Shown here: positions 7,996 to 19,944 of the stretch, piece after piece
How the letters are laid out: the number at the start of each line of letters is the position of its first letter
Numbering within the stretch: position 1 is the stretch's first letter
Assembly: GCF_003574735.1 (NCBI RefSeq)
Contig: NZ_QORW01000010.1
Span: forward strand, 1-64,000
Length of the DNA stretch: 64,000 nucleotides
DNA from: Dongia deserti
Lineage (GTDB): Bacteria; Pseudomonadota; Alphaproteobacteria; Dongiales; Dongiaceae
Direction: 5' to 3'
Position numbers and translations under genes: made by a program
The notes under the pieces: model-generated
What the model was told of the DNA's origin: nothing
Databases searched by the model: none
The model's input: the letters and a program-made list of their open reading frames with translations, nothing else

Positions 7996-9576
7996 TCAGA
8001 AGTGCTTCAGGAGACCCATCGACACTACGGCCTCGACAAATTCGTCATCTGAGTCATCAGCGAATTGTCGCGCGAAATTCACGGTGAACACCGCATCGAG
8101 GGTTTCGCTCAAGTTCCGGACCATGGACACCGCGGCTCCCACCAGGTGCTGGTGTTCCGTACCGGAGGGTCTGTCAAAGCTCTCATAGCGAAACCGAGCG
8201 GTCAGATTTAGGGTCGCGACGGGCGACAGACGATGGCCCCAGTTCGCGCTGCCCCCGATTGCCGTGTCCTGTTCGTCTAGGGCGTCGATGTCGCGGCGTT
8301 CATGATAGGCGATGGCGTCCCAGGTGTTTCGACCGCGGACCAAATGAAGTGACGCATTGAAGGCACGCAGCCGGAATGCGTTGTCTTCGAGGCTGAAAGT
8401 GTCATCCCCAAGCCGAAACAACCGCTCCGTCCGGGCGTCGACAAAATTGCCAAACTCATCTCGCCGCAAGAAGCCGAGGTTTTCAGAAAACGCGGATTGT
8501 GACGTCTGCAGCTGCTCTGTGTAGCTGAAGTCGATGCGAGAATCCGGACCAAGGAGATAGCTTGCCCTTCCTGTAACGAAGTCTGATTCAAAGCGATGGT
8601 TGTACAAGACCTCTATTACAGACCGCGGGCCGGGAGACAATCGCACTCCCGCACTGCCGATTGGGCCGTCCGGCTCCTCGTCCAGAGAAGAGTCGGAGAT
8701 TTGTTCGTAGCCGGCACTTCCGAACAAACTGATGGTTCCATTGATAGGATACTCCGCGCTCGCTGCAGCAAATACACTTTCAACATCTCGAGATCCGCTG
8801 CCATGTTGCGCATTGGCATTGAGTGCCCAGAGAAATCGGCTAAACCTGCTGCCGCTCAGCAGCGATCCTTCGACCGTGTGTATGGTGGTATCCGGCAGTT
8901 CATCGGAGAAGACCTGGCTGAAGGCGTATCCGAGGCCGGAATCGGCGAACGTCCCGAAATGGTTATGGATCGACGGGCTAATTCTATAGGTGTAGATCGT
9001 GTCAAGGTTGGTGGAGGCGGTCAGCAGTGAGCTCGAGGTCGGACGCTCATTTGACTCGGGCACTTGAGTGATCGCCGCGCTTGCGTCCAGGAACAGCATT
9101 TCGGGGACAAGGGTAGCATTGCTGTGGAGAGCAAGACGATTCCTCAACTCGCTCAGTTCCTGTTCCTCAACATAACCAACCGCATCCAGCGCGTAGTTCA
9201 GATCTATCGTGAGGCGGGGCCCTTCTCGGTGAACGTCCAGGGCCGGCGAGACCGTAGTCACAAAGTCGGCCTTCTCCTCGCCTGGGGGATCGAGGCGGGC
9301 GTTCGAGGTAAAGGACTCGAACGCCGATACGGATGGCTTTATCTCCCAGTCATTCGCCATTGCGAAGTCATAGGGTAAACAACCGAGAGCGAGCAACGCT
9401 ATGATGAGCCCGCGCCAGTGCGCAGGGTGGCCGCCTCTGATGCGGCTAGTTGATGAGGATAGGAGGACGGGCCATGGTGCCGACAAGCTGCTCTTTCGCC
9501 TCTGTTGAGAATCCAGCCCCGACAACCTTGGGCGATTGCCGCTAGAACCAGCTTTGCGGGATGACCAGGACGTCAC
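7996..9576 (-). CDS. Outer-membrane beta-barrel protein of exopolysaccharide export
   Basis: Predicted large outer-membrane barrel of about 450 mature residues. A signal peptide is seen at about residues 54-74 (LIIALLALGCLP, cleavage near AMA-ND). The rest is rich in alternating polar/hydrophobic strands with acidic turns, and the protein ends in Phe (GLLKHF), a typical outer-membrane assembly signal. Its position next to a Wza-like lipoprotein matches barrel proteins of exosortase (PEP-CTERM)-type exopolysaccharide loci. The first ATG at 9576 overlaps the upstream gene by 35 bases and leaves an unusually long n-region, so an in-frame TTG further in may be the true start. Family assignment rests on architecture and context, not on a catalytic motif. 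Confidence 0.75.
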   Translation of the reverse strand: MTSWSSRKAGSSGNRPRLSGLDSQQRRKSSLSAPWPVLLSSSTSRIRGGHPAHWRGLIIALLALGCLPYDFAMANDWEIKPSVSAFESFTSNARLDPPGEEKADFVTTVSPALDVHREGPRLTIDLNYALDAVGYVEEQELSELRNRLALHSNATLVPEMLFLDASAAITQVPESNERPTSSSLLTASTNLDTIYTYRISPSIHNHFGTFADSGLGYAFSQVFSDELPDTTIHTVEGSLLSGSRFSRFLWALNANAQHGSGSRDVESVFAAASAEYPINGTISLFGSAGYEQISDSSLDEEPDGPIGSAGVRLSPGPRSVIEVLYNHRFESDFVTGRASYLLGPDSRIDFSYTEQLQTSQSAFSENLGFLRRDEFGNFVDARTERLFRLGDDTFSLEDNAFRLRAFNASLHLVRGRNTWDAIAYHERRDIDALDEQDTAIGGSANWGHRLSPVATLNLTARFRYESFDRPSGTEHQHLVGAAVSMVRNLSETLDAVFTVNFARQFADDSDDEFVEAVVSMGLLKHF

Positions 9577-10177
9577 CTGGCATGATAAAGACGTTTGCCG
9601 ACATGTCGCCGTCCTTCAAAAGGTCATCGAGCCTGACTGCAAGTTGCTGTTTTTGATCAGGTGTCCTGCGCACGATAACGGCGCGATTGCCGGCAGCGAA
9701 TTGCGTCAGGCCGCCGACCGCAATCATGACGTCCAGCACCGACATGTCGGTGCGGTACGGAATCGCCTTTGGTTCGACCGCCTCCCCGATCACGCGAACC
9801 TGTTGCGAGTACGGGCCGACGAAATCCGTGACAATGACGGTAACATGGGGCTCTCGCAGATACGCGGAAAGACCCTGCCTGACCTCGTCGGCGAGCTGCG
9901 CCGGCGTCTTCTGCGCCGCCTCCACATCCTGCAGCAGCGGAAGCGAGATCCGGCCGTCAGGGCGGACAGGCACGCTGACCGACAGATCCGGATTCTGCCA
10001 AACGAACACGCTGAGCTTGTCGCCAGGCCCAATAAGATAACTGGCCTCATCCGACCCGCGCGAAGTGCTCAATCCATCCTCGCCAGCAGGCCTAGCTGAA
10101 CAGCCAGATAAGACGATCCCAGCTGCGAGCGCAAGGAGCAGCCAGTCCCACGCGACCCTCAAACCTCGCGTTGCCAT
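9542..10177 (-). CDS. Wza-like polysaccharide export lipoprotein
   Basis: Periplasmic/outer-membrane lipoprotein that conducts polysaccharide out of the cell. The 211 residues begin with a lipoprotein signal (lipobox LSGC, Cys about residue 26). The Poly_export domain begins YLIGPGDKLSVFVWQNPDLS and continues with VRPDGRISLPL; an SLBB-like segment follows (VRVIGEAVEPKAIPY, VGGLTQFAAGNRAVIVRR). The sequence resembles the short export proteins of PEP-CTERM/exosortase loci more than the 380-residue E. coli Wza. It is the first gene of the minus-strand export operon (export protein, barrel, regulator, co-polymerase). The divergent gene at 10401 implies a shared promoter region at 10178-10400. Confidence 0.92.
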   Translation of the reverse strand: MATRGLRVAWDWLLLALAAGIVLSGCSARPAGEDGLSTSRGSDEASYLIGPGDKLSVFVWQNPDLSVSVPVRPDGRISLPLLQDVEAAQKTPAQLADEVRQGLSAYLREPHVTVIVTDFVGPYSQQVRVIGEAVEPKAIPYRTDMSVLDVMIAVGGLTQFAAGNRAVIVRRTPDQKQQLAVRLDDLLKDGDMSANVFIMPGDVLVIPQSWF

Positions 10178-10400
10178 AGCCGACCCCCGACTAAGACTGT
10201 CTATAAAAGCTTAGCAGGCCTGTAGGGCATGCGCCCATACCAAAAAGTTTAGTCGTTGCTCCCCTAATCCAGGCGTCAGCCCTCAACCGGCCCGCGATCA
10301 TCATCCATGATGCAGAGAGCCTTAGCGTAGCGTCTTTTGGTGAGCTTGCGAGCACCTGGTGATTCTTTTGAGATGCGCCGGTATCCACTCACCGGGACTG

Positions 10401-11810
10401 ATGGATTCAGGTCCCAGCCCCACTTGGAGGCCAACTCTGGCACGGCTCATCCTGATAAATCGCTACTTTCATCCCGATGAAGCAGCCACCAGCCAGGTAG
10501 CGACCACACTATCATCGGCTTTGGCCGAGCGCGGTTGGGCAGTGCACGTTGTTACGAGCCGCCAACTCTACGGCGATGCCGACGCCAATCTAGCCGCCGC
10601 TGACCGGCTCCGGGCGGTCCACATTCACCGCATCTGGACCACGCGCATGGGGCGAAGCCGGCTGCTCGGTCGCGCACTCGACTATACCACTTTCTATGCC
10701 AGCGCCTTTCTTTGGCTTCTCCGGTACGCGCGGCAGGGAGACGTGTTTGTCGCCTTGACTGACCCGCCGCTGATCTCGGTGGCATCTGCTCTGGCGGCGA
10801 GAATGCGAGGCTGTACACACGTCAACTGGCTCCACGACCTATTTCCTGAGATTGCGGGCGTACTCGGCATACTCCCTTGCAGGATCTGCCATTGGATGCT
10901 GACGCGCCTGCGAAACTGGTCATTGCGCTGCTCCCAGATGAACGTCGCGATCGGAGAAGGTATGGCGGACCGCCTAGCCAGCCAAGGCCTCCCTGCCAAC
11001 CGTATCGCCGTCATCCACAATTGGTCCGACGCATCCAACATCTCGCCGGTTGCCGCTATGAACAACCAGCTGCGCACCGCATGGGGTCTTTCCGATAAGT
11101 TCGTCGTTGGGTATTCGGGCAATCTCGGTCGTGCGCACGACCCCCAGACGATCCTCAAGGCCGCGGAGATACTACGCCACGATGAGGAGATCCGATTCCT
11201 GTTCATCGGCGGTGGTCATTTCTTCAAGGTTCTTGAAGCCGAAGCGCACCGACGCGGTCTTACCAATGTGATATTCAAGCCATATCAACCAAAAGATCAA
11301 CTGAGCGATAGTTTATCGGTGGCGGACCTGCACCTCATATCGCTGTTGCCTAAGCTCGAAGGTCTCATCGTCCCCAGCAAGTTCTACAGCGTTGCCGCTG
11401 CGGGCCGGCCCACTATTTTCATTGGCGATCGGTCTGGCGAAATCCCCCGACTCCTGTACGATGCCAAGTGCGGAGCTGCAGTCGCAGCCGGACAAGGGGC
11501 TTCCTTGGCGCATCAGATCGAGCGGCTGAAAGGAAACAGGGCTCTGCGTACTCTTTGGGGCCAAAACGCTCGCGCACTATTGGAGCACCGGTTCGATCAG
11601 CGCCTGGCGGTCACGAAATGGGTCGGCCTGCTCTATAGGATCGGCCCTTCACCGCGCGTGCCATACCCGACCGAGCTCCAGCGACCGGCTGCGACGGAGG
11701 GCCAGCTCCGCCGGCAGATGCCGACGCCCGTCTACGGCGGGTCGCAGATGACGGCACAAAAGGAGCCAAGGGTGGCTCCGGGGAACGACATTGCGAGAAT
11801 GAGTGAATGA
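10401..11810 (+). CDS. WcaI-like family 4 glycosyltransferase
   Basis: Cytoplasmic retaining glycosyltransferase of the GT4/GT-B fold, resembling colanic-acid enzyme WcaI. The N-terminal acceptor half begins ARLILINRYFHPDEAATSQ; the C-terminal donor half holds GYSGNLGRAHD and the terminal signature LEGLIVPSKFYSVAAAGRP. About 469 residues; the last 60 are Pro/Arg-rich and beyond the catalytic fold. I chose the ATG at 10401, preceded by GGGA; a GTG 42 bases earlier is possible. Its stop overlaps the start of the nucleotidyltransferase gene by four bases (ATGA), so the two are translationally coupled. That ties it physically to the possible peptide-modification module downstream. Confidence 0.9.
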   Translation: MDSGPSPTWRPTLARLILINRYFHPDEAATSQVATTLSSALAERGWAVHVVTSRQLYGDADANLAAADRLRAVHIHRIWTTRMGRSRLLGRALDYTTFYASAFLWLLRYARQGDVFVALTDPPLISVASALAARMRGCTHVNWLHDLFPEIAGVLGILPCRICHWMLTRLRNWSLRCSQMNVAIGEGMADRLASQGLPANRIAVIHNWSDASNISPVAAMNNQLRTAWGLSDKFVVGYSGNLGRAHDPQTILKAAEILRHDEEIRFLFIGGGHFFKVLEAEAHRRGLTNVIFKPYQPKDQLSDSLSVADLHLISLLPKLEGLIVPSKFYSVAAAGRPTIFIGDRSGEIPRLLYDAKCGAAVAAGQGASLAHQIERLKGNRALRTLWGQNARALLEHRFDQRLAVTKWVGLLYRIGPSPRVPYPTELQRPAATEGQLRRQMPTPVYGGSQMTAQKEPRVAPGNDIARMSE

Positions 11811-12997
11811 GCGGTCCGCGGACATCGCAGCCGTCAAACCTGCAGGGCGTGGCCCGGCAATCCGATGGCATCCGGTTGATCGCGAAGTGTCTCAGTTTCC
11901 GGGATACCGTCAATCTGCTCGAAAGTCTGCGTGCGCTGCTGTCGGACGCCGCTGCCGACTGGCTCACTGTGGTCCGCCTCGCGAATCACCACCTGGTGAC
12001 CCCGGCGCTTTGGTCGGCCATCGATCGCCGAGGCTTCACTGCGCTTCTTCCAAACGACTTAGACGCATATCTGCGCCTGCTCTACGAGACGAACCGGAAG
12101 AGAAATCGCCTGATTCGCGACGAAGCGCTAGCAGCACTTCAAGAACTCAATCGGCACTGTATTCAGCCAGTTGTCATGAAGAGTGCTCTCACGCTGTTTG
12201 ACCCCAGCTGCGACGAGGGCGCAAGCATTATGGCAGACGTCGATCTCCTGATTCGACGTCAGGAACTACCGGTGGCGATTTCGGCCCTGCGGTCGATCGG
12301 CTACGATCTCTTGGCGGTTCCACCAGCCCATGCGCACGCTTGGACATTCTATCGGCCCTTGTCGCTCGCCACCATCGACCTCCATTGCGACGTGGGTCCC
12401 CAACGCGCCCTGTTGTCGGCTGACGCGGTTCGCTCAGTTGCCAAGCCCGTCGCTAGAAACGATTTGGCAATGGATGCTCCCTCCATCAACCACCGCGTCC
12501 TCATGCTGGTCATGAATTTCGGAGTGTTCGAGCGCCACTACTTCCGCGGCCACATTCCGTTGAGGGGACTGCGGGACTTGGGGGAGATATGCCAGCGCAA
12601 CGGCAGCGACATCGACTGGGATTACCTGTGTCACTCCATGAGCGAGCCTACCTTGAGCGCTCAAGCGGCCGCCATGTTTCATATGGCTCGGGAACTCATG
12701 AACATCCCCATTCCGATCTTCATCCGGCGAACTGCGGCGGCCGACCGACATCTGCGCCGGTGCTTCCTGCAGCTCGCTCATCCATCCCTCGACCGCGTTG
12801 CGCGCGCTTACGCTGCTGTTGCCTGGCCTTTCAATCGAGCGAGAATGGACTATCGGCACCATTGCGGAACGCACGGTCGATCGCTCGCGGTAGCGCGGCT
12901 TCGGCACGCACTCGACATCCTGAGCCGTCGGAGCCCGTTGCGCTCCTGGCGCGCCGCATCCTTGGGCAGCGGGCAAGACAAGGTAAGCACCCTATGA
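11807..12997 (+). CDS. NTP_transf_5-type nucleotidyltransferase-like protein
   Basis: A 396-residue protein of the uncharacterised nucleotidyltransferase family (polymerase-beta-like fold). The core shows the conserved Lys segment VVMKSALTL (K125), the metal-binding pair MADVDLLI (D144, D146) and a third acidic site in TIDLHCD (D191). Relatives occur in polysaccharide loci and in some lasso-peptide clusters, where one (pseudomycoidin PsmN) is reported to add sugar to the peptide. ATGA overlaps at both ends couple it to the glycosyltransferase before it and the PqqD-HprK fusion after it. The likely role is modification of a peptide or sugar in this operon; substrate unknown. The canonical KG of the Lys motif is KS here. 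Confidence 0.8.
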   Translation: MSGPRTSQPSNLQGVARQSDGIRLIAKCLSFRDTVNLLESLRALLSDAAADWLTVVRLANHHLVTPALWSAIDRRGFTALLPNDLDAYLRLLYETNRKRNRLIRDEALAALQELNRHCIQPVVMKSALTLFDPSCDEGASIMADVDLLIRRQELPVAISALRSIGYDLLAVPPAHAHAWTFYRPLSLATIDLHCDVGPQRALLSADAVRSVAKPVARNDLAMDAPSINHRVLMLVMNFGVFERHYFRGHIPLRGLRDLGEICQRNGSDIDWDYLCHSMSEPTLSAQAAAMFHMARELMNIPIPIFIRRTAAADRHLRRCFLQLAHPSLDRVARAYAAVAWPFNRARMDYRHHCGTHGRSLAVARLRHALDILSRRSPLRSWRAASLGSGQDKVSTL

Positions 12998-14244
12998 ACC
13001 AGATGGCGTTTCGACCCGCCCCGGGGGTTGAGCTGTTTCCGATTCACGACGAGGCCCTGCTATTCGATCAGAATGGTCAACGGCTTTTTCATCTGAACGC
13101 TATAGCGACGCACATTTGGTCGCGGCTCGACAGTGAGATGGATGTCAAGAGCATCGCGAATGCAACTGCGGAAGCAATGTGCCTCGATCCCGCCAAAGCA
13201 CGCCTATTTGTGCTCGAAATGCTGAAGATCTGGCGCGGAGCAGGTCTGCTGCAGGATGGATGCACATTTCTGTCGCCCCAGCGGACGGCTAGCCCACCTC
13301 ATGAAGCGTTGCTGAATACAAGTGATAAGGAGATCAAAAGGACAATTCTTCCGACGCGCCAGCTCTATCGGCTGCTTGATACCGTGTTCTCCGTGGGATT
13401 CTCCAACGCCTCGTTGGCGGATTCTACCATCTCGATCTTTCGTCACTTGAGAACCGCGCTTGATCCGGTGAACGCAGTGTCTATCGACATTATCGAGCAT
13501 GAATGCGGCATCCAGATCCTTCACGGCAACCAGATACTCCGTGAATGCCTAAGCACACGGGAGATTATCCCATTGCTTCAGGGGCTGCTCGGCCTAATGG
13601 CAATCCGGGCTTATGGATATCTGCTTGCCGTGCATGCATCGTGCCTCGCGAGATCGGATGATGTTCTGCTGTTGGCCGGCAAGAGTGGAAGCGGGAAAAC
13701 CACCATGGCTGCGGCGCTGATGGCCGCAGGATGGGCGTACATGTCAGACGACACGGCACTTCTGCTACCACAGACGCTCGACTGTGTCGGCGTTCCCTAT
13801 CCCTTGACGGTCAAGGAACCCTCCTGGCGGACTCTCGATCGTTACTTTCCGATCATCGATCAGGCCCCGACCCATTTGCGACGGGACGACCAGTTGGTCC
13901 GATATCTTTCGCCTCCATATCATGTCTCCCGTAGGCCGCGCCGCGTGCGCTGGATCGGGTTCCCACACCACTCGGCAAATTCGTCCAGCATGCGGATGCT
14001 CGATCAAGTCGAAGGCCTCTACCGGCTCCTGGAGCATTGCTGCGCAATTCCGCATTTCCTCAACTCGGGAGACATTCAGCAACTGGTGCGATGGAGCGCA
14101 AGCATTCGCTTCTTCGAGTTTGCGATCGCGGACATCGATGACTCAGTCGCGCAGGTCGCCGCTGTGACAGGTGCAAATGCCGGCCGAGCTACCCGTATAC
14201 CTATTTCGGATGACTCGTATAAATCCTCAACCGCATGTACATGA
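12994..14244 (+). CDS. PqqD-like domain fused to HPr-kinase-like P-loop kinase
   Basis: A 416-residue fusion. Residues about 8-90 resemble PqqD/RRE peptide-binding domains (ALLFDQNGQRLFHLNAIATH, then IWSRLD). Residues about 170-400 resemble the HPr kinase core, with HAS at 214, Walker A LAGKSGSGKT (227-236) and the following SDDTALL (251-257). HprK-related kinases with PqqD partners are known from exopolysaccharide loci, and similar kinases phosphorylate lasso peptides. I chose the ATG at 12994, which overlaps the upstream stop as ATGA; a longer frame starting inside the upstream gene is an artefact. The obvious candidate substrate is the 74-residue peptide encoded 36 bases downstream. Kinase fold and RRE-like domain are well supported; substrate and role are inferred. 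Confidence 0.85.
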   Translation: MNQMAFRPAPGVELFPIHDEALLFDQNGQRLFHLNAIATHIWSRLDSEMDVKSIANATAEAMCLDPAKARLFVLEMLKIWRGAGLLQDGCTFLSPQRTASPPHEALLNTSDKEIKRTILPTRQLYRLLDTVFSVGFSNASLADSTISIFRHLRTALDPVNAVSIDIIEHECGIQILHGNQILRECLSTREIIPLLQGLLGLMAIRAYGYLLAVHASCLARSDDVLLLAGKSGSGKTTMAAALMAAGWAYMSDDTALLLPQTLDCVGVPYPLTVKEPSWRTLDRYFPIIDQAPTHLRRDDQLVRYLSPPYHVSRRPRRVRWIGFPHHSANSSSMRMLDQVEGLYRLLEHCCAIPHFLNSGDIQQLVRWSASIRFFEFAIADIDDSVAQVAAVTGANAGRATRIPISDDSYKSSTACT

Positions 14245-14269
14245 GTAAGATGTTTTGTCGCCACGCAGT

Positions 14270-14274
14270 AGGAG
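14270..14274 (+). promoter_or_regulatory. Strong ribosome binding site of the small peptide gene
   Basis: AGGAG lies six bases upstream of the ATG at 14281. This is one of the clearest Shine-Dalgarno sequences in the locus and supports translation of the short downstream frame. Confidence 0.75.
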
Positions 14275-14280
14275 CCGGAA

Positions 14281-14505
14281 ATGAAGCGCCCGCCTCAAGT
14301 GCCAGGGAACTCAGCGGAAGCTGAAGCGCGTCGGCGCTTTCTGGCGCAATGCGGGCGGTTTGCGATTGTAACGCCTCCGACTATGACCATGCTCCTGAGC
14401 GTCTCTGCCAAGCCGACAGAGGCACATGCATCCAGCATTCTCGGGGGCGGATGGACGCCTCCGCCAAGTCCTCCAAATCGTCCGGTTAATCGGCGCAAAC
14501 GTTGA
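14281..14505 (+). CDS. Small peptide with twin-arginine-like segment and Gly/Pro-rich tail
   Basis: A 74-residue protein with a strong AGGAG site six bases upstream, 36 bases after the PqqD-HprK gene. It has a polar N-terminus, then ARRRFLAQCGRFAIVTPP (16-33), a short hydrophobic run (TMTMLLSVSA), a possible signal-peptidase site (AHA-SS, 48-52), GGGW (55-58) and a Pro/Arg tail (TPPPSPPNRP). RRRFL followed by a hydrophobic segment is Tat-signal-like. The RRxFLxxCGRFAxxTPP pattern also recalls short proteins I have seen near HprK/PqqD genes in other polysaccharide loci (from memory, not checked). Two readings: an exported mini-protein, or a modified precursor peptide with a leader bound by the PqqD domain. 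Function not established. Confidence 0.7.
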   Translation: MKRPPQVPGNSAEAEARRRFLAQCGRFAIVTPPTMTMLLSVSAKPTEAHASSILGGGWTPPPSPPNRPVNRRKR

Positions 14506-14575
14506 AAACGTCTTCATACGGCCGCCAGGATCGGAGGGCGCGGAGCTCACCGTGTCGGCCGGTTCCGAATCACGT

Positions 14576-15151
14576 TTAGCGCAGTTTGACGGGCACCGCC
14601 GGCACACCCTGGTAAATGTAACCCGGCAGCAGATCGCTGGTGGCGATGCTCCCAAGCGTCAGGACAGCACCGCGCCCCGCTTTGACTCCTGGTCCCACGG
14701 CAGATCGCGCCGCCAGCCAGACTTCGCCTTCCAGCACGATCGGCTGCACTTTCAAGTCGAAACCAAGCTTCCGCCAGTCGTGGCTACCCGTGCAAAGGTA
14801 AACAGCTTGCGACACGCAGCAATGATCGCCGAGGCAAATCTCTTCGAGATTATCGAACCACACGTCCTCTCCGACCCAGCAGTGGTCTCCAATCCGTAAG
14901 CGCCAGGGAAATTTAACACGCACGCCGGGTTTGATTTTGACACCCATTCCGATTCTTGCACCGAACAGCCTCAACGCCGCGATCCTAAGCGCGTTGCAGG
15001 AGAGCGGCGATCTCAGCAGTAGAAGCTGCGTCAGCTGCCAGATTGCCTCCAGCCATAGCGGCCCGCCGCGATCGAAGCCGGTCGCAGTATAGCCGTCGAG
15101 GCGCATGTAGCGTCGACTAGCCTGTTCCGACCTGTCGTTCAGCGCGAGCAT
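14576..15151 (-). CDS. WcaF-like acetyltransferase (left-handed beta-helix)
   Basis: Predicted to O-acetylate a sugar of the repeat unit using acetyl-CoA in the cytoplasm. The 191 residues contain hexapeptide-repeat turns (IGMGVKIKPGVRVKFP, IGDHCWVGEDVWF, LGDHCCVSQAVYL), the catalytic-His-type segment CTGSHDW, and the closing GYIYQGVPAVPVK typical of the WcaF/maltose-acetyltransferase group. It is the last gene of the long minus-strand operon, 9 bases after a glycosyltransferase stop codon. It converges with the small peptide gene, leaving 70 bases between stops without an obvious terminator. Confidence 0.9.
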   Translation of the reverse strand: MLALNDRSEQASRRYMRLDGYTATGFDRGGPLWLEAIWQLTQLLLLRSPLSCNALRIAALRLFGARIGMGVKIKPGVRVKFPWRLRIGDHCWVGEDVWFDNLEEICLGDHCCVSQAVYLCTGSHDWRKLGFDLKVQPIVLEGEVWLAARSAVGPGVKAGRGAVLTLGSIATSDLLPGYIYQGVPAVPVKLR

Positions 15152-15160
15152 GCGATCCTC

Positions 15161-16330
15161 CTAGCCACTGACAACACTCGCGGGTCGCGGGCCAGCCCGG
15201 TTCAGCCACCGATACACATCCTTCAGTGCTTCGCTGTTCACACTTTGCGAGAAGCGATGCTGCACAAGCTGCAACCCGCGCATACCCATTTGCTGGCGTT
15301 CGGGGTCGGTCATTGCGGCGAATGTTCTCAGTCCCTGCAGTATTCCGTCTCCGTCCGGCGCAATCGGCAAGGCCGCTCCCGCCACGAACCCCTCCGGGAT
15401 ATTGCACTGCTCAGTCATCAGCACGGGCAAGCCGTAGGACCAGGCCTCGAGCACGACCAGGGGGAGGCCTTCGCTGACCGATGGCAGCACAAAGCCCGCT
15501 GCTTTGCGGTAGATGGCATCCTTCGCGGCCCCGAACTGCGGGCCGGCAAAGCGAACGCTGTCCGTCACACCAAGCTGTGCGGCCAAGCTGTACAAGTCGC
15601 GCTCATGGCCGCCTTGGTCCCAGCCCGCCAGCACGAGCTGCCAGTTGCCCTCCCCAAGACCGCGGCGCCCATCAAACAGGCACCACGCCAGCAGCAGGTT
15701 CACAAGTCCCTTCTTCGGATGCAACCGACCAAGATATAGCAATGTCCGAGACGGTTCTTCCATGCGGTCTCCGCCGGGGATAGCGACGAGGTCCGGCCGG
15801 TCGACGTAGTTGGGAATGATACAGATTGGATTGCGGAGCCCCAGGGACCGGAACGACTCTGCCTCTGCTTCGCACAAGGCGTGAAGGCAAGCCGCTCCGT
15901 CCAGGTGACGCCTCTCATATGCAGACAGTGCCAGGCACTTCTTCCAGCGGCTGTTGCCAAGCGCCCATCCATCGAGCATGCCGTGGGCTGATATCATATA
16001 CGGCCGCCCTGTTCCATGCGACCAGAGCAGGCTAGCGACGGACGGATACATCCAGAGCCCGTGGACATGGAGAAGGTCTACCTTCGCTTTTGCCAAAACG
16101 CCGGCCAGCCGGGGCGCAAATCCGATCGACTGCGGCCCTAATACGGGAAGCGCGCAGACGTGCACGCCGTCCCAGTCGGTCGGCTGCACCGCCGGTCGTT
16201 CCTCGGCCAAGCCGAAGACCGCGATCTGAAATTCTGGTGGTGATTGCAACGCGGACGCAACGCGCCTGACGGCATCAAAAACGCCTCCGCCGCGATGCGA
16301 CATCCAGCTGGTTAAGAGCCCAATTCTCAT
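15161..16330 (-). CDS. Family 4 glycosyltransferase
   Basis: GT-B fold retaining glycosyltransferase of 389 residues. It starts MRIGLLTSWMSHRGGGV with the glycine-rich N-terminal loop. The donor half has LLYLGRLHPKKGLVNLL and the EX7E-type signature SVSEGLPLVVLEAWSYGLPV. The start overlaps the upstream gene's stop by four bases (ATGA). It probably adds one sugar of the repeat unit on the undecaprenyl carrier. Donor and linkage cannot be read from sequence. Confidence 0.92.
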   Translation of the reverse strand: MRIGLLTSWMSHRGGGVFDAVRRVASALQSPPEFQIAVFGLAEERPAVQPTDWDGVHVCALPVLGPQSIGFAPRLAGVLAKAKVDLLHVHGLWMYPSVASLLWSHGTGRPYMISAHGMLDGWALGNSRWKKCLALSAYERRHLDGAACLHALCEAEAESFRSLGLRNPICIIPNYVDRPDLVAIPGGDRMEEPSRTLLYLGRLHPKKGLVNLLLAWCLFDGRRGLGEGNWQLVLAGWDQGGHERDLYSLAAQLGVTDSVRFAGPQFGAAKDAIYRKAAGFVLPSVSEGLPLVVLEAWSYGLPVLMTEQCNIPEGFVAGAALPIAPDGDGILQGLRTFAAMTDPERQQMGMRGLQLVQHRFSQSVNSEALKDVYRWLNRAGPRPASVVSG

Positions 16331-17535
16331 CGTGTGCTCAGCACGCTCACCAGGGTTCGATCAAGAATGCTCGGTTTGGGCGGCGTAGCGGACAGCGCAG
16401 CAGTCGCAGCACGAGCAAGGTTCTTGGCAAAATTCTCCGGTGACCAGCGTGCAATAATCTCCCGACTTCTCCGTCCCATCTCATCAAGGGCTTGACCACG
16501 GGTGGCGATACGATGCAGCGCGGCTGCCATCGAACACGTATCGTAAGGGTCAAAGAGAAATCCATTGCAGCCTTCTTTGACCAGATCGCCTGCACATCCG
16601 CATCTTTTCGAGACCAGTACCGGCAAGCCGGATGCCATGGCTTCATTGACGACGAGCCCCCACTGTTCCGTGGTGCTAGCGTGCACGAACGCGCCCGCCA
16701 AGCCATAGTAGGCAGGCAACTCGCGATATGGCTTGGCGCCGGGCAAAAACGCGTGGTCTGCCAGCCCCAGCCGATCGCGTGCCGACATCAGCTCCAGTCG
16801 GAGCTCACCATCTCCCACTATCACGAGCGACCACGCTTCTGCGCCGTGCAACCCCCGATAGATCGCAAAGGCCTCCATCAAACGAAGCAGGTTCTTCTTG
16901 CTCGAGAACCGGGCACAGGCCAGGAAATATCTGACGGGCAATCCAAGAGCGGCTCTCAACTGTTCATCCTGACGGCGTGCGGCGGCGGCGCCGCTCGAGA
17001 AGTAGCCGTTGTCGACGGCATCATAGCCGGTGAAGACCTGCTCCGCTGCCGAGCCAAGGACCACCATATACTCGAGATGAGGCGTACCACCGACCAAAGC
17101 CGCAGAGCAAAGCGCAACAATGCGCCGCTTGACCGCTTCGAGCCACCATTGGCGCCGATCATCAATCTCCGTACTTTCCGACATGATGATCGTGGGAACT
17201 CTACGCGACAGGCTCCAACCAAGGGCAGCAATGGCACCGCCGAACGACCAACCGTTGAGGCAGACCACGTCCGGCTTGAGCTCGTCGAAGCAGCTCCACA
17301 CACGGCGTGCCATCGCGCGTCCGCGGATCTCTGCCAATGGGGTATTCGGAAACAGCGTTACACGGCGGAACGACTGCGACTCCTTCGGTTGCTGGAGAAC
17401 CCGGAAAGCGTCGACGTCCGTCAACTGGGCCATGCAGATTCGCAGATCGCCCGCGTCGGCCGCGGCGCGAGCGCGTGCGTCATGATACGGCACTGAATTG
17501 ACGACAAGCCAGCAGACCAGCGGAGCGAAGGTCAT
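16327..17535 (-). CDS. Family 4 glycosyltransferase
   Basis: Glycosyltransferase of about 402 residues. The donor domain shows FLACARFSSKKNLLRLMEAF, VIVGDGELR and the signature TTEQWGLVVNEAMASGLPVL. The ATG at 17535 overlaps the previous stop as ATGA, which argues for that start rather than one six codons earlier. It sits in the middle of three tightly coupled glycosyltransferase genes. Specificity unknown. Confidence 0.9.
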   Translation of the reverse strand: MTFAPLVCWLVVNSVPYHDARARAAADAGDLRICMAQLTDVDAFRVLQQPKESQSFRRVTLFPNTPLAEIRGRAMARRVWSCFDELKPDVVCLNGWSFGGAIAALGWSLSRRVPTIIMSESTEIDDRRQWWLEAVKRRIVALCSAALVGGTPHLEYMVVLGSAAEQVFTGYDAVDNGYFSSGAAAARRQDEQLRAALGLPVRYFLACARFSSKKNLLRLMEAFAIYRGLHGAEAWSLVIVGDGELRLELMSARDRLGLADHAFLPGAKPYRELPAYYGLAGAFVHASTTEQWGLVVNEAMASGLPVLVSKRCGCAGDLVKEGCNGFLFDPYDTCSMAAALHRIATRGQALDEMGRRSREIIARWSPENFAKNLARAATAALSATPPKPSILDRTLVSVLSTR

Positions 17536-18659
17536 TGTCTTCTCCGGCCGCATCCAGTCTTCCGCTCTTCGGCAAGAAAGGCGAATACACGGTCGGCGTA
17601 GCCCTCTGGAGATGCGACCTGCTCGAGCCGCCGCCGGCCGGCCGCCACCAGCCTGTTCGCAATTGCTCTGTTCCCGAGAGCGGAAAGCGCAACGTTCGTC
17701 ATCCGATCAATGTCGTGATCTGCATAAATCGGGCCATAGTTCTCCCCATTCAGAATCTCCGACAGACCTCCGTGCCGCACGGATGCAACAACGGGCACAC
17801 CTGCAGCAAGCGCCTCTAACGGGCTGCGCCCCAACGCCTCCCAATCGGCGTTGAAGAGCATTAGATCCAGGCTGCGAAAGAAATCCCTAAGATCGCGCTG
17901 CCAGCCCAACCAAGTCACCCGATCTGATATACCGAGCTCAACCGTCCGCAATCTCAATGCACCGGCTTCCGGTCCGTCTCCGGCGATGACGAACATGGCG
18001 TCAGCGTCCACCGTCGCGATTCTCCTGGCGATCTCAAGGAAGATATCGAACCGTTTTCGCGGGACGAGCCATCCAGCATTCCCGATCACGCGGGCTTGCA
18101 TCGGCAAGCCGAGACGCTGGCGCGACAACATGCGTTCGGCTTCGCTGGGAATGTCGGAGAGGGAGATTGGGCAACCCACCGTGTGGCTGATGGGTCGGAT
18201 TTCCGGATAAATGTCTTCCGCCTCCTGCCTGATGAAGTCCGATGGAAACACGATCGCAGAGAACCGGCGCCGCGCCGAACGATAGATGAGGCGCCACTGC
18301 CAGCGACGCTTTACTCCTGAATGATGAAAGTGAATGCTGAGGATGCGACGCGTGGCACAGAAACTCCCTAGTGCCTTCATCGCCAGCAGATTGTGGCCGG
18401 TCATGATGAGCGCATCGCTCTGCCTACCGGACAGTCGGCGCCTGAACTGCCCCACGCTACGCCATCCACCGACACCGCGGTAAGGTAATCCCTCTGCTGG
18501 AATAGCTTGCTCGGCAAGCTGCGCCCCCATCGCACCGAGTGGATTGAGGGACAACAGCTCAACTGCATGACCGCGCGCCTTCAAGACAAGCATAAGCGCC
18601 AACGTCGATTGCTCCATTCCTCCCAGATTCGCGCACTGAATGATGTTGACGATACGCAT
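17532..18659 (-). CDS. Family 4 glycosyltransferase
   Basis: A 375-residue GT-B enzyme. The N-terminus MRIVNIIQCANLGGMEQS carries the GGME/GGxE acceptor loop common in this family. The donor domain has GNAGWLVPRKRFDIFLEIA, FVIAGDGPEAG and the signature ADWEALGRSPLEALAAGVPVV. Only one base separates it from the end of the polymerase gene. It is expected to extend the repeat unit; donor sugar unknown. Confidence 0.92.
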   Translation of the reverse strand: MRIVNIIQCANLGGMEQSTLALMLVLKARGHAVELLSLNPLGAMGAQLAEQAIPAEGLPYRGVGGWRSVGQFRRRLSGRQSDALIMTGHNLLAMKALGSFCATRRILSIHFHHSGVKRRWQWRLIYRSARRRFSAIVFPSDFIRQEAEDIYPEIRPISHTVGCPISLSDIPSEAERMLSRQRLGLPMQARVIGNAGWLVPRKRFDIFLEIARRIATVDADAMFVIAGDGPEAGALRLRTVELGISDRVTWLGWQRDLRDFFRSLDLMLFNADWEALGRSPLEALAAGVPVVASVRHGGLSEILNGENYGPIYADHDIDRMTNVALSALGNRAIANRLVAAGRRRLEQVASPEGYADRVFAFLAEERKTGCGRRRQ

Positions 18660-18660
18660 G

Positions 18661-19944
18661 CTATGGCCGCTGGAGTGGCGCTGCTTCCGCCGGTGATCTT
18701 GCTAGGCTTGGTTCTCGCCGCCTGTTGCGCGCCCACATCAGTGCCGGCAGCAAAAATATCGCCATGTGGACCCAGGGATCGACGAAGTAGTGCGTTGTGT
18801 GGGTGATTGCCTCCATCGCGTAAGCCGGAATCAACATATAGATGATCTGCGCCATCTGGCTTCCGCTCGATGCCGCAAGCCAGAGCTTCTGCATGATGTA
18901 GGCGATCGCGAAGAACTTTAGCGCGCCAAAGTACCAGAAGGATTGGAACGAATCGCTGAGGCCGGTCCATGTACTTCCGACCGGAGAGCGGTAGAAGTAC
19001 TCTTCAAGAGCGGGCTGCGGCAGGTTGATAAAGAGGGACTGCTTGAACTCCTTGCCGACCAGCTGCGCCGGGACGTAGGAGAAGACCAGCGCATTCCAAT
19101 GGGCGAGGCCAAAGTCAAGCTTCATACTGCGCGATACTGCCGCAATGTTGTAGGCCGCATTCCGGACCTCCGCCCCGCCGCTTTCGGTGATGCGCGACAG
19201 GTTGCCGACGAAATCGATATCGCCGATCCTTTCCCAACTTGGCCCTCCGGCATTCATTGTGGCAGAGCGGTAGTCTCCTATGCTGTTTATGAAAAGCGCG
19301 CCCATGACGACACCAGCCAGCATCGCCGATCGTGGCAAGCACCAGCCGCGCTGGAACCAGACCGCGACCAGAATGATGACAGCGAACTCGACCAGGTCGT
19401 GCCGTCGGCCACCGATGATGATGCGGTCCAAACAGAAGAATGCCCCATATAGCGCGATCAGTAGGGCCCATTTTGATCGATTGCGCGCGTACAAGAACAC
19501 GGCAAGCGCGAACCCGTAGGTCAGCGCGCGCGCAAAGAACAGGTAGGCGACCGGCAGGCCCGTCCATTGGGTGTTGCTGAGCATCTCTGGCGGCAGGCGA
19601 CTGAGCGCAAAATAGAAGTATCCGCCCATGGCCGACAGTCCTGCACTTGCCAGCAGCAACCGGCCATCATCCAAGGTCACATCGGCCGGCGGTATGGGGC
19701 GCGCAACCGCGGCGCCCAGCCAGCACATGAACGCCGACAGGATCGCGAGAACCAGTGTTGATTCCAATGCCTCGACAGGCAGGAACCGGTCATGCGACAA
19801 GCCGAGAATCTGGGGCAAGATGAATGCCGCAAACACCGCCCCCGCTAGGAACGGATATTGATAGATCCTATTTCGTTCGAGCAATCCCCAGACAAGCAAG
19901 AGGGCGCACGCGGCGACGAAGGTGATTACAAGTGGGCCGCTCAA
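18661..19944 (-). CDS. Wzy-like O-antigen/exopolysaccharide polymerase
   Basis: A very hydrophobic 427-residue inner-membrane protein with about 10-12 predicted segments, for example VITFVAACALLLVWGLL at the start and FFAIAYIMQKLWLA near the end, and a larger polar loop in the middle (about 220-330). Topology, length and position between glycosyltransferase genes fit a Wzy polymerase joining repeat units in the periplasm. No motif is diagnostic because Wzy proteins diverge strongly; the GGRRHDLVE loop resembles the Arg-rich loops of that group. The start overlaps the upstream glycosyltransferase stop (ATGA). It is the only Wzy candidate in the locus. Confidence 0.78.
   Translation of the reverse strand: MSGPLVITFVAACALLLVWGLLERNRIYQYPFLAGAVFAAFILPQILGLSHDRFLPVEALESTLVLAILSAFMCWLGAAVARPIPPADVTLDDGRLLLASAGLSAMGGYFYFALSRLPPEMLSNTQWTGLPVAYLFFARALTYGFALAVFLYARNRSKWALLIALYGAFFCLDRIIIGGRRHDLVEFAVIILVAVWFQRGWCLPRSAMLAGVVMGALFINSIGDYRSATMNAGGPSWERIGDIDFVGNLSRITESGGAEVRNAAYNIAAVSRSMKLDFGLAHWNALVFSYVPAQLVGKEFKQSLFINLPQPALEEYFYRSPVGSTWTGLSDSFQSFWYFGALKFFAIAYIMQKLWLAASSGSQMAQIIYMLIPAYAMEAITHTTHYFVDPWVHMAIFLLPALMWARNRRREPSLARSPAEAAPLQRP

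Follow-up and report, generated by a model that had tools for sequence, protein, structure and literature searches.

What does a 74-residue open reading frame (ORF) do beside a kinase of the HprK type, a nucleotidyltransferase-fold protein and a run of glycosyltransferases in an alphaproteobacterial polysaccharide locus? The question is raised by the first 64,000 nucleotides of contig NZ_QORW01000010.1 of Dongia deserti (assembly GCF_003574735.1), the stretch of DNA that was analysed and is called the window here. Our answer, held with moderate confidence, is that these genes form a precursor-peptide module of the type that makes ribosomally synthesized and post-translationally modified peptides (RiPPs): a RiPP recognition element (RRE) would read the leader of the 74-residue peptide, the kinase fused to it would phosphorylate a Ser, the nucleotidyltransferase (NTase) would decorate the phosphate, and the same leader would direct export. 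The features concerned, all on the forward strand, are as follows.

11807..12997, +, NTP_transf_5 nucleotidyltransferase-fold protein, 396 aa (PF14907, E 1.5e-32)
12994..14244, +, PqqD (RRE)-HprK-like kinase fusion, 416 aa (Pfam and NCBIfam matches, structure model)
13051..13251, +, PqqD/RRE domain of the fusion (PF05402; profile and fold matches)
13597..14157, +, HprK-like kinase domain (TIGR04352 below cut-off; invariant residues)
14270..14274, +, AGGAG ribosome-binding site of the peptide gene, 6 bases 5' of its ATG (sequence)
14281..14505, +, putative precursor peptide P0002, 74 aa (ORF, family alignment, genome scan)
14281..14430, +, its putative leader, residues 1-50, with R17R18xF20L21, C24G25, T31P32P33 and A48-H-A50 (alignments of 19 peptides and 86 leaders)
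14431..14433, +, Ser51, first residue past AHA, predicted phosphorylation site (Ser column 81/86)
10359..11810, +, GT4 glycosyltransferase, WcaI-like; context rather than core, ending where the module begins

This layout agrees with a sequence-only reading of the window, which had described a glycosyltransferase, an NTase, a PqqD/HprK fusion and a 74-residue peptide in succession. The ORFs lie in these places, all on the same strand, with ATGA overlaps between glycosyltransferase and NTase (11807-11810) and between NTase and kinase fusion (12994-12997), and the peptide gene has the AGGAG site of its own that had been claimed for it. The kinase stop and the peptide start are 36 bases apart.

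The same reading had proposed a peptide-modification module and had suggested, as a check, that the peptide be sought together with the kinase in other genomes. The check did not refute the proposal, and co-occurrence supports it. When 19 peptides were used to scan one genome per species, 168 pattern matches resulted; 119 of these were confirmed as relatives, and 78 loci were kept. A peptide ORF was obtained in 77 of these loci (all except L102), and kinase and NTase were both present in 34 of the 78, with the nearest enzyme ORF no more than 250 bases from the peptide ORF in 29 of those 34. Gene order and strand differ among loci; the gene set is constant. In orphan loci (42 of the 77 with a peptide ORF), the fetched stretch contained no kinase. 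Eighteen genomes had orphan copies only, and 17 of them encode one full-length PqqD-HprK protein elsewhere (E<=5e-97). Similarly, among the 119 genomes of the family to which genome G361 belongs, nine contain the kinase (E<=1e-40) and seven, from five genera, contain the peptide (E<=1e-6), and all seven have the kinase (Fisher p 6e-10, uncorrected for relatedness). Peptide and kinase recur together in many bacteria, and the peptide is therefore probably what the kinase modifies. Given the full-length kinase in 17 of 18 orphan genomes and the overlap in the G361 family, one kinase probably serves several precursor genes in trans. At the level of gene association, the occurrence of the peptide is tied to the PqqD-HprK fusion and the NTP_transf_5 protein, and we regard the link between peptide and kinase as well supported. 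A search of the class with the kinase profile A3 matched 110 of 385 genomes at E<=1e-10, a figure rejected as a kinase count because many matches cover little beyond the P-loop; nine genomes exceeded 200 bits.

The peptides of this family share a leader of about 50 residues, RRxFLxxCGxFAxxTPP followed by AxA and Ser, and a variable tail that may be Gly/Asn-rich, His-rich, Pro/Lys-rich or amphipathic at its end, as in NWLERFLDWLF. Ser occupies the alignment column directly after AxA in 81 of 86 distinct leaders (a regular-expression count, which picks the wrong AxA in some leaders and was not used, gave 72/86), while the column preceding this AxA-adjacent Ser column is variable, its commonest residue occurring in 20 of 86. 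The leaders had been pre-filtered by a motif over residues 17-28 and the scan pattern covered residues 24-32, so part of the conservation within those segments follows from the selection itself; neither segment includes the Ser51 column. Three residues before P33, the leaders carry V or A in 85 of 86 cases, not Y or W. As for the tails, the amphipathic NWLERFLDWLF-like end is found at L047, L048, L052, L063, L071, L084 and L110, as opposed to the Gly-rich tails elsewhere, and many others (L033, L034, L035, L036, L049 and L101 among them; by eye, uncounted) end in Arg with a GNNGxGNGxxDGxPG-like stretch. At L041 (7430-8266), three Cys-rich peptides with a similar leader stand in tandem; the one tested gave a weak, below-cut-off match to the radical SAM target family TIGR04117.

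Members of the family were found in Bradyrhizobium, Sinorhizobium, Ensifer, Tardiphaga, Afipia, Rhodopseudomonas, Reyranella, Vineibacter, Tistlia, Microvirga and further Alphaproteobacteria. The copy from the same genus as the window is 53% identical over the alignment. A translated plasmid search with the peptide returned 98 records at a loose E<=10 (best 4e-7), 71 of them from Sinorhizobium; one of the five regions first opened from this search, in Ensifer canadensis, carries the same three genes. A five-peptide profile matched 12 of 385 genomes of the class and 3 of 61 relatives at E<=1e-3. The 12 include two distant peptides (G079, G294) and one match judged false, in G269, which sits within a 403-aa protein that we take to be DnaN. 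On viral contigs, 33 pattern matches for the single peptide gave no confirmed relative. In the 6.1 Mb host genome, the leader profile A8 found the window peptide as its sole match, the next standing at E 0.19. None of nine main-family peptides tested against Pfam and NCBIfam, the window peptide included, matched any family above cut-off; L043, one of two distant peptides tested, matches TIGR01409.

Which neighbours belong with the peptide can be read from synteny. The surroundings form an exopolysaccharide locus with export and outer-membrane proteins of the XrtA/PEP-CTERM type (TIGR03027, TIGR03016), a below-cut-off match to a WecA-like phosphotransferase and more glycosyltransferases. We compared 13 window proteins (three core, 10 flanking) with six stretches, two of which, L044 and L046, are the same place. 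In L046, from the same genus, the three core genes are kept, and so are 8 of 10 flanking proteins, in an unchanged order: five glycosyltransferases (the GT4 enzyme and four others), an acetyltransferase, a membrane protein and the WecA-like protein. L046 has no match for the export and outer-membrane proteins of the window. None of the 10 flanking proteins has a match at L045 (same family), L006 (Ensifer), L074 (Sinorhizobium) or L101 (Reyranella), where the matches are confined to NTase, kinase and peptide. Since only the three core genes match in these four loci outside the genus, the glycosyltransferase and the polysaccharide locus are context, and the earlier proposal that they are part of the module is not supported as worded. 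Beyond NTase, kinase and peptide, no gene cluster exceeded 9 of the 40 fused-type loci (BLAST clusters at E 1e-8, which may split diverged families; peptidases and transporters were not searched directly). RmlC-like and RmlD-like clusters each reached 9/40 (one example of each identified), and in Bradyrhizobium loci L071, L077, L078, L081, L086 and L093 the module adjoins dTDP-rhamnose genes.

In the fusion protein, residues 20-86 match PqqD (PF05402) at E 4.6e-8, above cut-off, and residues 202-388 match HprK_rel_A (TIGR04352) at E 3.2e-19. With a score of 69 bits, where the cut-off is 200, the HprK-like part is related to TIGR04352 without being its equivalog. In 21 and 25 aligned kinase relatives, H214, G232, G234, K235, T237 and D252 are invariant and D253 is conserved at 90% or more; the His, the P-loop Lys and both Asp align with those of HPr kinase 1ko7. 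In the structure model (pLDDT 88.5), the N-terminal part resembles the lasso RRE TbiB1 bound to its leader (TMt 0.85-0.90). For the whole fusion, the top fold matches are phosphoenolpyruvate carboxykinases (E 6.6e-7), only partial matches given a TMq of 0.40, followed by HPr kinase 1kkl (E 1e-3, TMt 0.50). The two enzyme groups belong to one superfamily. A profile of the fusion compared with known proteins gave 4.4e-7 for 1ko7, 1.3e-6 and 2.9e-6 for the lasso RREs TfuB1 and TbiB1, 3.6e-4 for PbaB1 and 1.5e-3 for LppB, the RRE of the linear polyphosphorylated peptides discussed below. The RRE of the fusion thus resembles solved RRE-leader complexes in sequence and fold. In the NTase, K125 and D144-x-D146 are invariant (12 and 15 aligned relatives). 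Its structure model is fair (pLDDT 82) and its fold matches are weak, the best at E 1.2e-3 and none at E<=1e-3; the top ones are nucleotidyltransferases, and a lower one is FKRP (E 0.23), which we take to be a sugar-phosphate transferase.

From these parts a sequence of steps can be proposed. The PqqD domain would bind the leader, probably through VxxPx[VMIL] at residues 30-35, which is related to the known RRE motif [Y/W]xxPx[L/V/I]. The fused kinase would then phosphorylate the near-invariant Ser51, the first residue after AHA, and the NTP_transf_5 protein would add a sugar or a nucleotide to the Ser51 phosphate. Finally, the twin-arginine-like leader would direct export and an ordinary signal peptidase would cut at AxA, so that a short modified peptide would be set free in the envelope or the polysaccharide layer. 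A single kinase would, in many genomes, act in trans on several precursor genes. A twin arginine, a hydrophobic stretch and AxA make up the signal motif of twin-arginine (Tat) export, and the leader presents them in export-signal order, its hydrophobic stretch being moderate (mean hydropathy 1.5); the export role that we infer is a reading of this motif. Phosphorylation and sugar or nucleotide transfer are proposed by analogy with two published systems. In the pathway of Linear Polyphosphorylated Peptides (LPPs) of Bacillota (Popov et al. 2026, PMC13381572), LppK phosphorylates core Ser3, just after the cleavage site, and that residue only; pseudomycoidin carries one or two hexoses that an NTase has attached to its phosphate (PMC8498205). 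The conserved Ser after AxA, LPP Ser3 and the pseudomycoidin hexoses together suggest the series of binding, phosphorylation, decoration and export.

A parallel arrangement is found in what NCBI names the 'HPr-rel-A system' (TIGR04352 kinase, TIGR04353 PqqD family chaperone), which shares a kinase, an RRE and NTP_transf_5 with the window module. Of 299 genomes sampled from the phylum, 50 have a TIGR04352 match above cut-off, and loci were taken from 46 of these 50 (G460, G413, G561 and G546 were left out), five for training and 41 held out. Several of the first regions showed, a short way upstream of the kinase, an ORF whose leader is twin-arginine-like. A leader model was built from 10 seeds, half of them taken from HPr-rel-A loci and half from stretches that A3 had picked out. 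It hit (E<1e-3, up to 1.5 kb upstream, same strand) in 26 of the 41 held-out loci, which, being from related genera, do not count as 41 independent events, versus 1 of 3013 other ORFs; this lone background hit lies 177 bp from a kinase on the opposite strand. Among 31 leaders at E<1e-5 (five of them training sequences), 28 have AxA and all 28 have Ser within +1 to +4, at +3 in 19 when counted from the first AxA. In 23 of the 26 held-out loci with a hit, the precursor is 158-228 aa long. By eye, a PqqD-like ORF separates the leader ORF from the kinase in 9 of 12 loci, and in the four tested it matched TIGR04353 above cut-off. Pfam gave no match at E<=0.1 for ten of the leader proteins, and NCBIfam gave one weak match, far under cut-off, for six. 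HPr-rel-A thus shares an upstream precursor ORF with a twin-arginine-like leader, AxA and Ser, and differs in its separate RRE, its longer precursors and leaders that are weakly alignable with the window family. By the curated cut-offs of TIGR04352 and TIGR04353 (the latter gives the fused RRE domain 13.3 bits against 35), the window module is not an HPr-rel-A equivalog. This parallel and the export-signal-like leader are additions to the sequence-only reading.

Modules with related parts occur elsewhere too. The host genome has a second one (G000:C7, L168:6446-8370), in which a peptide with a DRRKMLKRLG leader and Ser/Gly repeats precedes an HprK-PqqD fusion of reversed domain order; it adjoins a polysaccharide pyruvyl transferase. 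Elsewhere in the same genome (G000:C8, L169:5358-9866), an HprK-like ORF (profile E 9e-12, no Pfam match), PqqD and NTP_transf_5 occur together with a GT2 glycosyltransferase and a second one seen by eye, in a genome with no lasso B2 family. In HPr-rel-A loci L186-L197 and L202-L235, a glycosyltransferase cluster occurs in 20 of 46 and an amidotransferase cluster in 17 of 46; the one example tested of each is of XrtA/PEP-CTERM type.

Several observations weigh against the precursor-peptide module as proposed. One orphan genome of the 18 (L097) has no kinase match, G791 and G732 match the kinase without matching the peptide, and G114, G122 and G294 have the peptide without a full-length kinase match. 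Profile A3 was built from peptide-adjacent kinases, which favours it in kinase searches. The strict rule fails in 15 of the 41 held-out HPr-rel-A loci: the ORF is on the other strand in L212, weak hits (E 0.002-0.07) fall where they are expected in six, and the other eight show nothing convincing. Alignment between the two leader types is weak, with a probability of 55 over 20 columns. The leaders of the window family lack the aromatic residue of [Y/W]xxP, and export signals do not usually have PP in their hydrophobic stretch. Curated Tat models in Pfam and NCBIfam do not match the window peptide; among 10 other peptides they match only the distant L043 (TIGR01409), and they match none of six HPr-rel-A leaders. 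Finally, deletion of lppN caused no detectable change in the LPP study (PMC13381572), which leaves decoration by the NTase weakly founded.

The lack of Tat model matches also speaks for an alternative that we nonetheless find unlikely: a RiPP precursor with leader and core, phosphorylated in the cytoplasm, whose leader is not an export signal and whose protease and transporter are unlinked. The conserved CG and TPP exceed what a Tat signal needs, and a leader profile that finds just the window peptide in 6.1 Mb likewise fits this alternative, as do the leaders of LPPs and lasso peptides, which are RRE baits (PMC13381572). Against it stand the export-signal order of RRxFL, the moderately hydrophobic stretch and AxA, and the lack, within the limits of the comparison given earlier, of any further cluster above 9/40 in the fused-type loci.

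Less probable still, to our mind, is that the peptide is a small exported protein and the RRE-kinase acts elsewhere, for instance on an exopolysaccharide enzyme. The window module and its same-genus copy do lie within one exopolysaccharide locus, and XrtA/PEP-CTERM-type genes are common in HPr-rel-A loci; however, the association of peptide and kinase is also seen in trans and away from such a locus. We consider an unusual or degenerate lasso peptide cluster very improbable; in this genome it would need a cyclase and a protease from unknown families. Lasso clusters also have an RRE, an HprK-like kinase and an NTase (PMC13381572, PMC8498205), but the known lasso kinase site is the C-terminal Ser (PMC8498205) and the window peptide ends in Arg. 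As the sequence-only reading had it, this is not a standard lasso cluster: the B2 protease family PF13471 has no match at E<=0.01 in the genome, and a cyclase scan that covered the neighbouring proteins, not the whole genome, showed none. That the peptide is a chance ORF beside unrelated genes, as its shortness and the 82 mechanical ORFs overlapping 8000-19000 might suggest, is refuted by 119 relatives with conserved leader residues, to which its own ribosome-binding site may be added.

Returning to the precursor-peptide module, its closest known counterpart is the LPP system. Both have an RRE, an HprK-like kinase, an NTP transferase and precursors with a conserved N-terminus and a variable C-terminus, without a cyclase, and LPP loci, like that of the window, often lie among polysaccharide genes (PMC13381572); the LPP Ser phosphorylated just after the leader cleavage site has a counterpart in the conserved Ser found at the matching place here. 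The LPP RRE is a separate protein, however, whereas that of the window is fused to the kinase; the LPP leader motif is YxxPxVLxHQxIxFETxxS as against RRxFLxxCGxFAxxTPP; and the LPP core includes a SipW-like peptidase and an MsbA-like transporter, which were not seen as constant neighbours here in a comparison that did not search for these families directly. Although the module appears to work alike, we do not assign it to LPP because it lacks the discrete RRE and the YxxP motif. Phosphorylated lasso peptides (paeninodin, the S. yanoikuyae lasso peptide, pseudomycoidin; PMC8498205) share the HprK-like kinase, RRE and NTase, but there the C-terminal Ser is modified, and the host genome has no B2 and the module no cyclase beside it. 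DUF2063/DUF2282 precursors with Sec signals (PMC12710340) likewise pair an RRE system with export-signal precursors; their enzymes differ, and a kinase is not mentioned in the text consulted. The word 'kinase' does not occur in the searched text of two RRE surveys (PMC12710340, PMC7470986), and the literature searched, which did not extend to subscription journals and preprints, contained no description of these peptides.

The analysis names a probable substrate for an enzyme set that NCBI labels a peptide system, for which the NCBI library held no matching precursor model among the leaders tested. LPPs are called restricted to Bacillota (PMC13381572), and LPPs and paeninodin are described as confined to that phylum in the sources consulted; the module would extend phosphopeptide RiPP logic from Bacillota to Pseudomonadota, in a form where kinase and leader-reading domain are one protein. 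More tentatively, and with clear doubt, twin-arginine-type export signals might double as RiPP leaders across Pseudomonadota, an RRE reading the signal peptide and the kinase and NTP_transf_5 protein yielding a secreted phosphoglycopeptide, with Ser at its mature N-terminus and a sugar or glycan on the phosphate, that is built into or primes extracellular polysaccharide. Should the leader indeed act in export as well, a single sequence would specify both modification and secretion.

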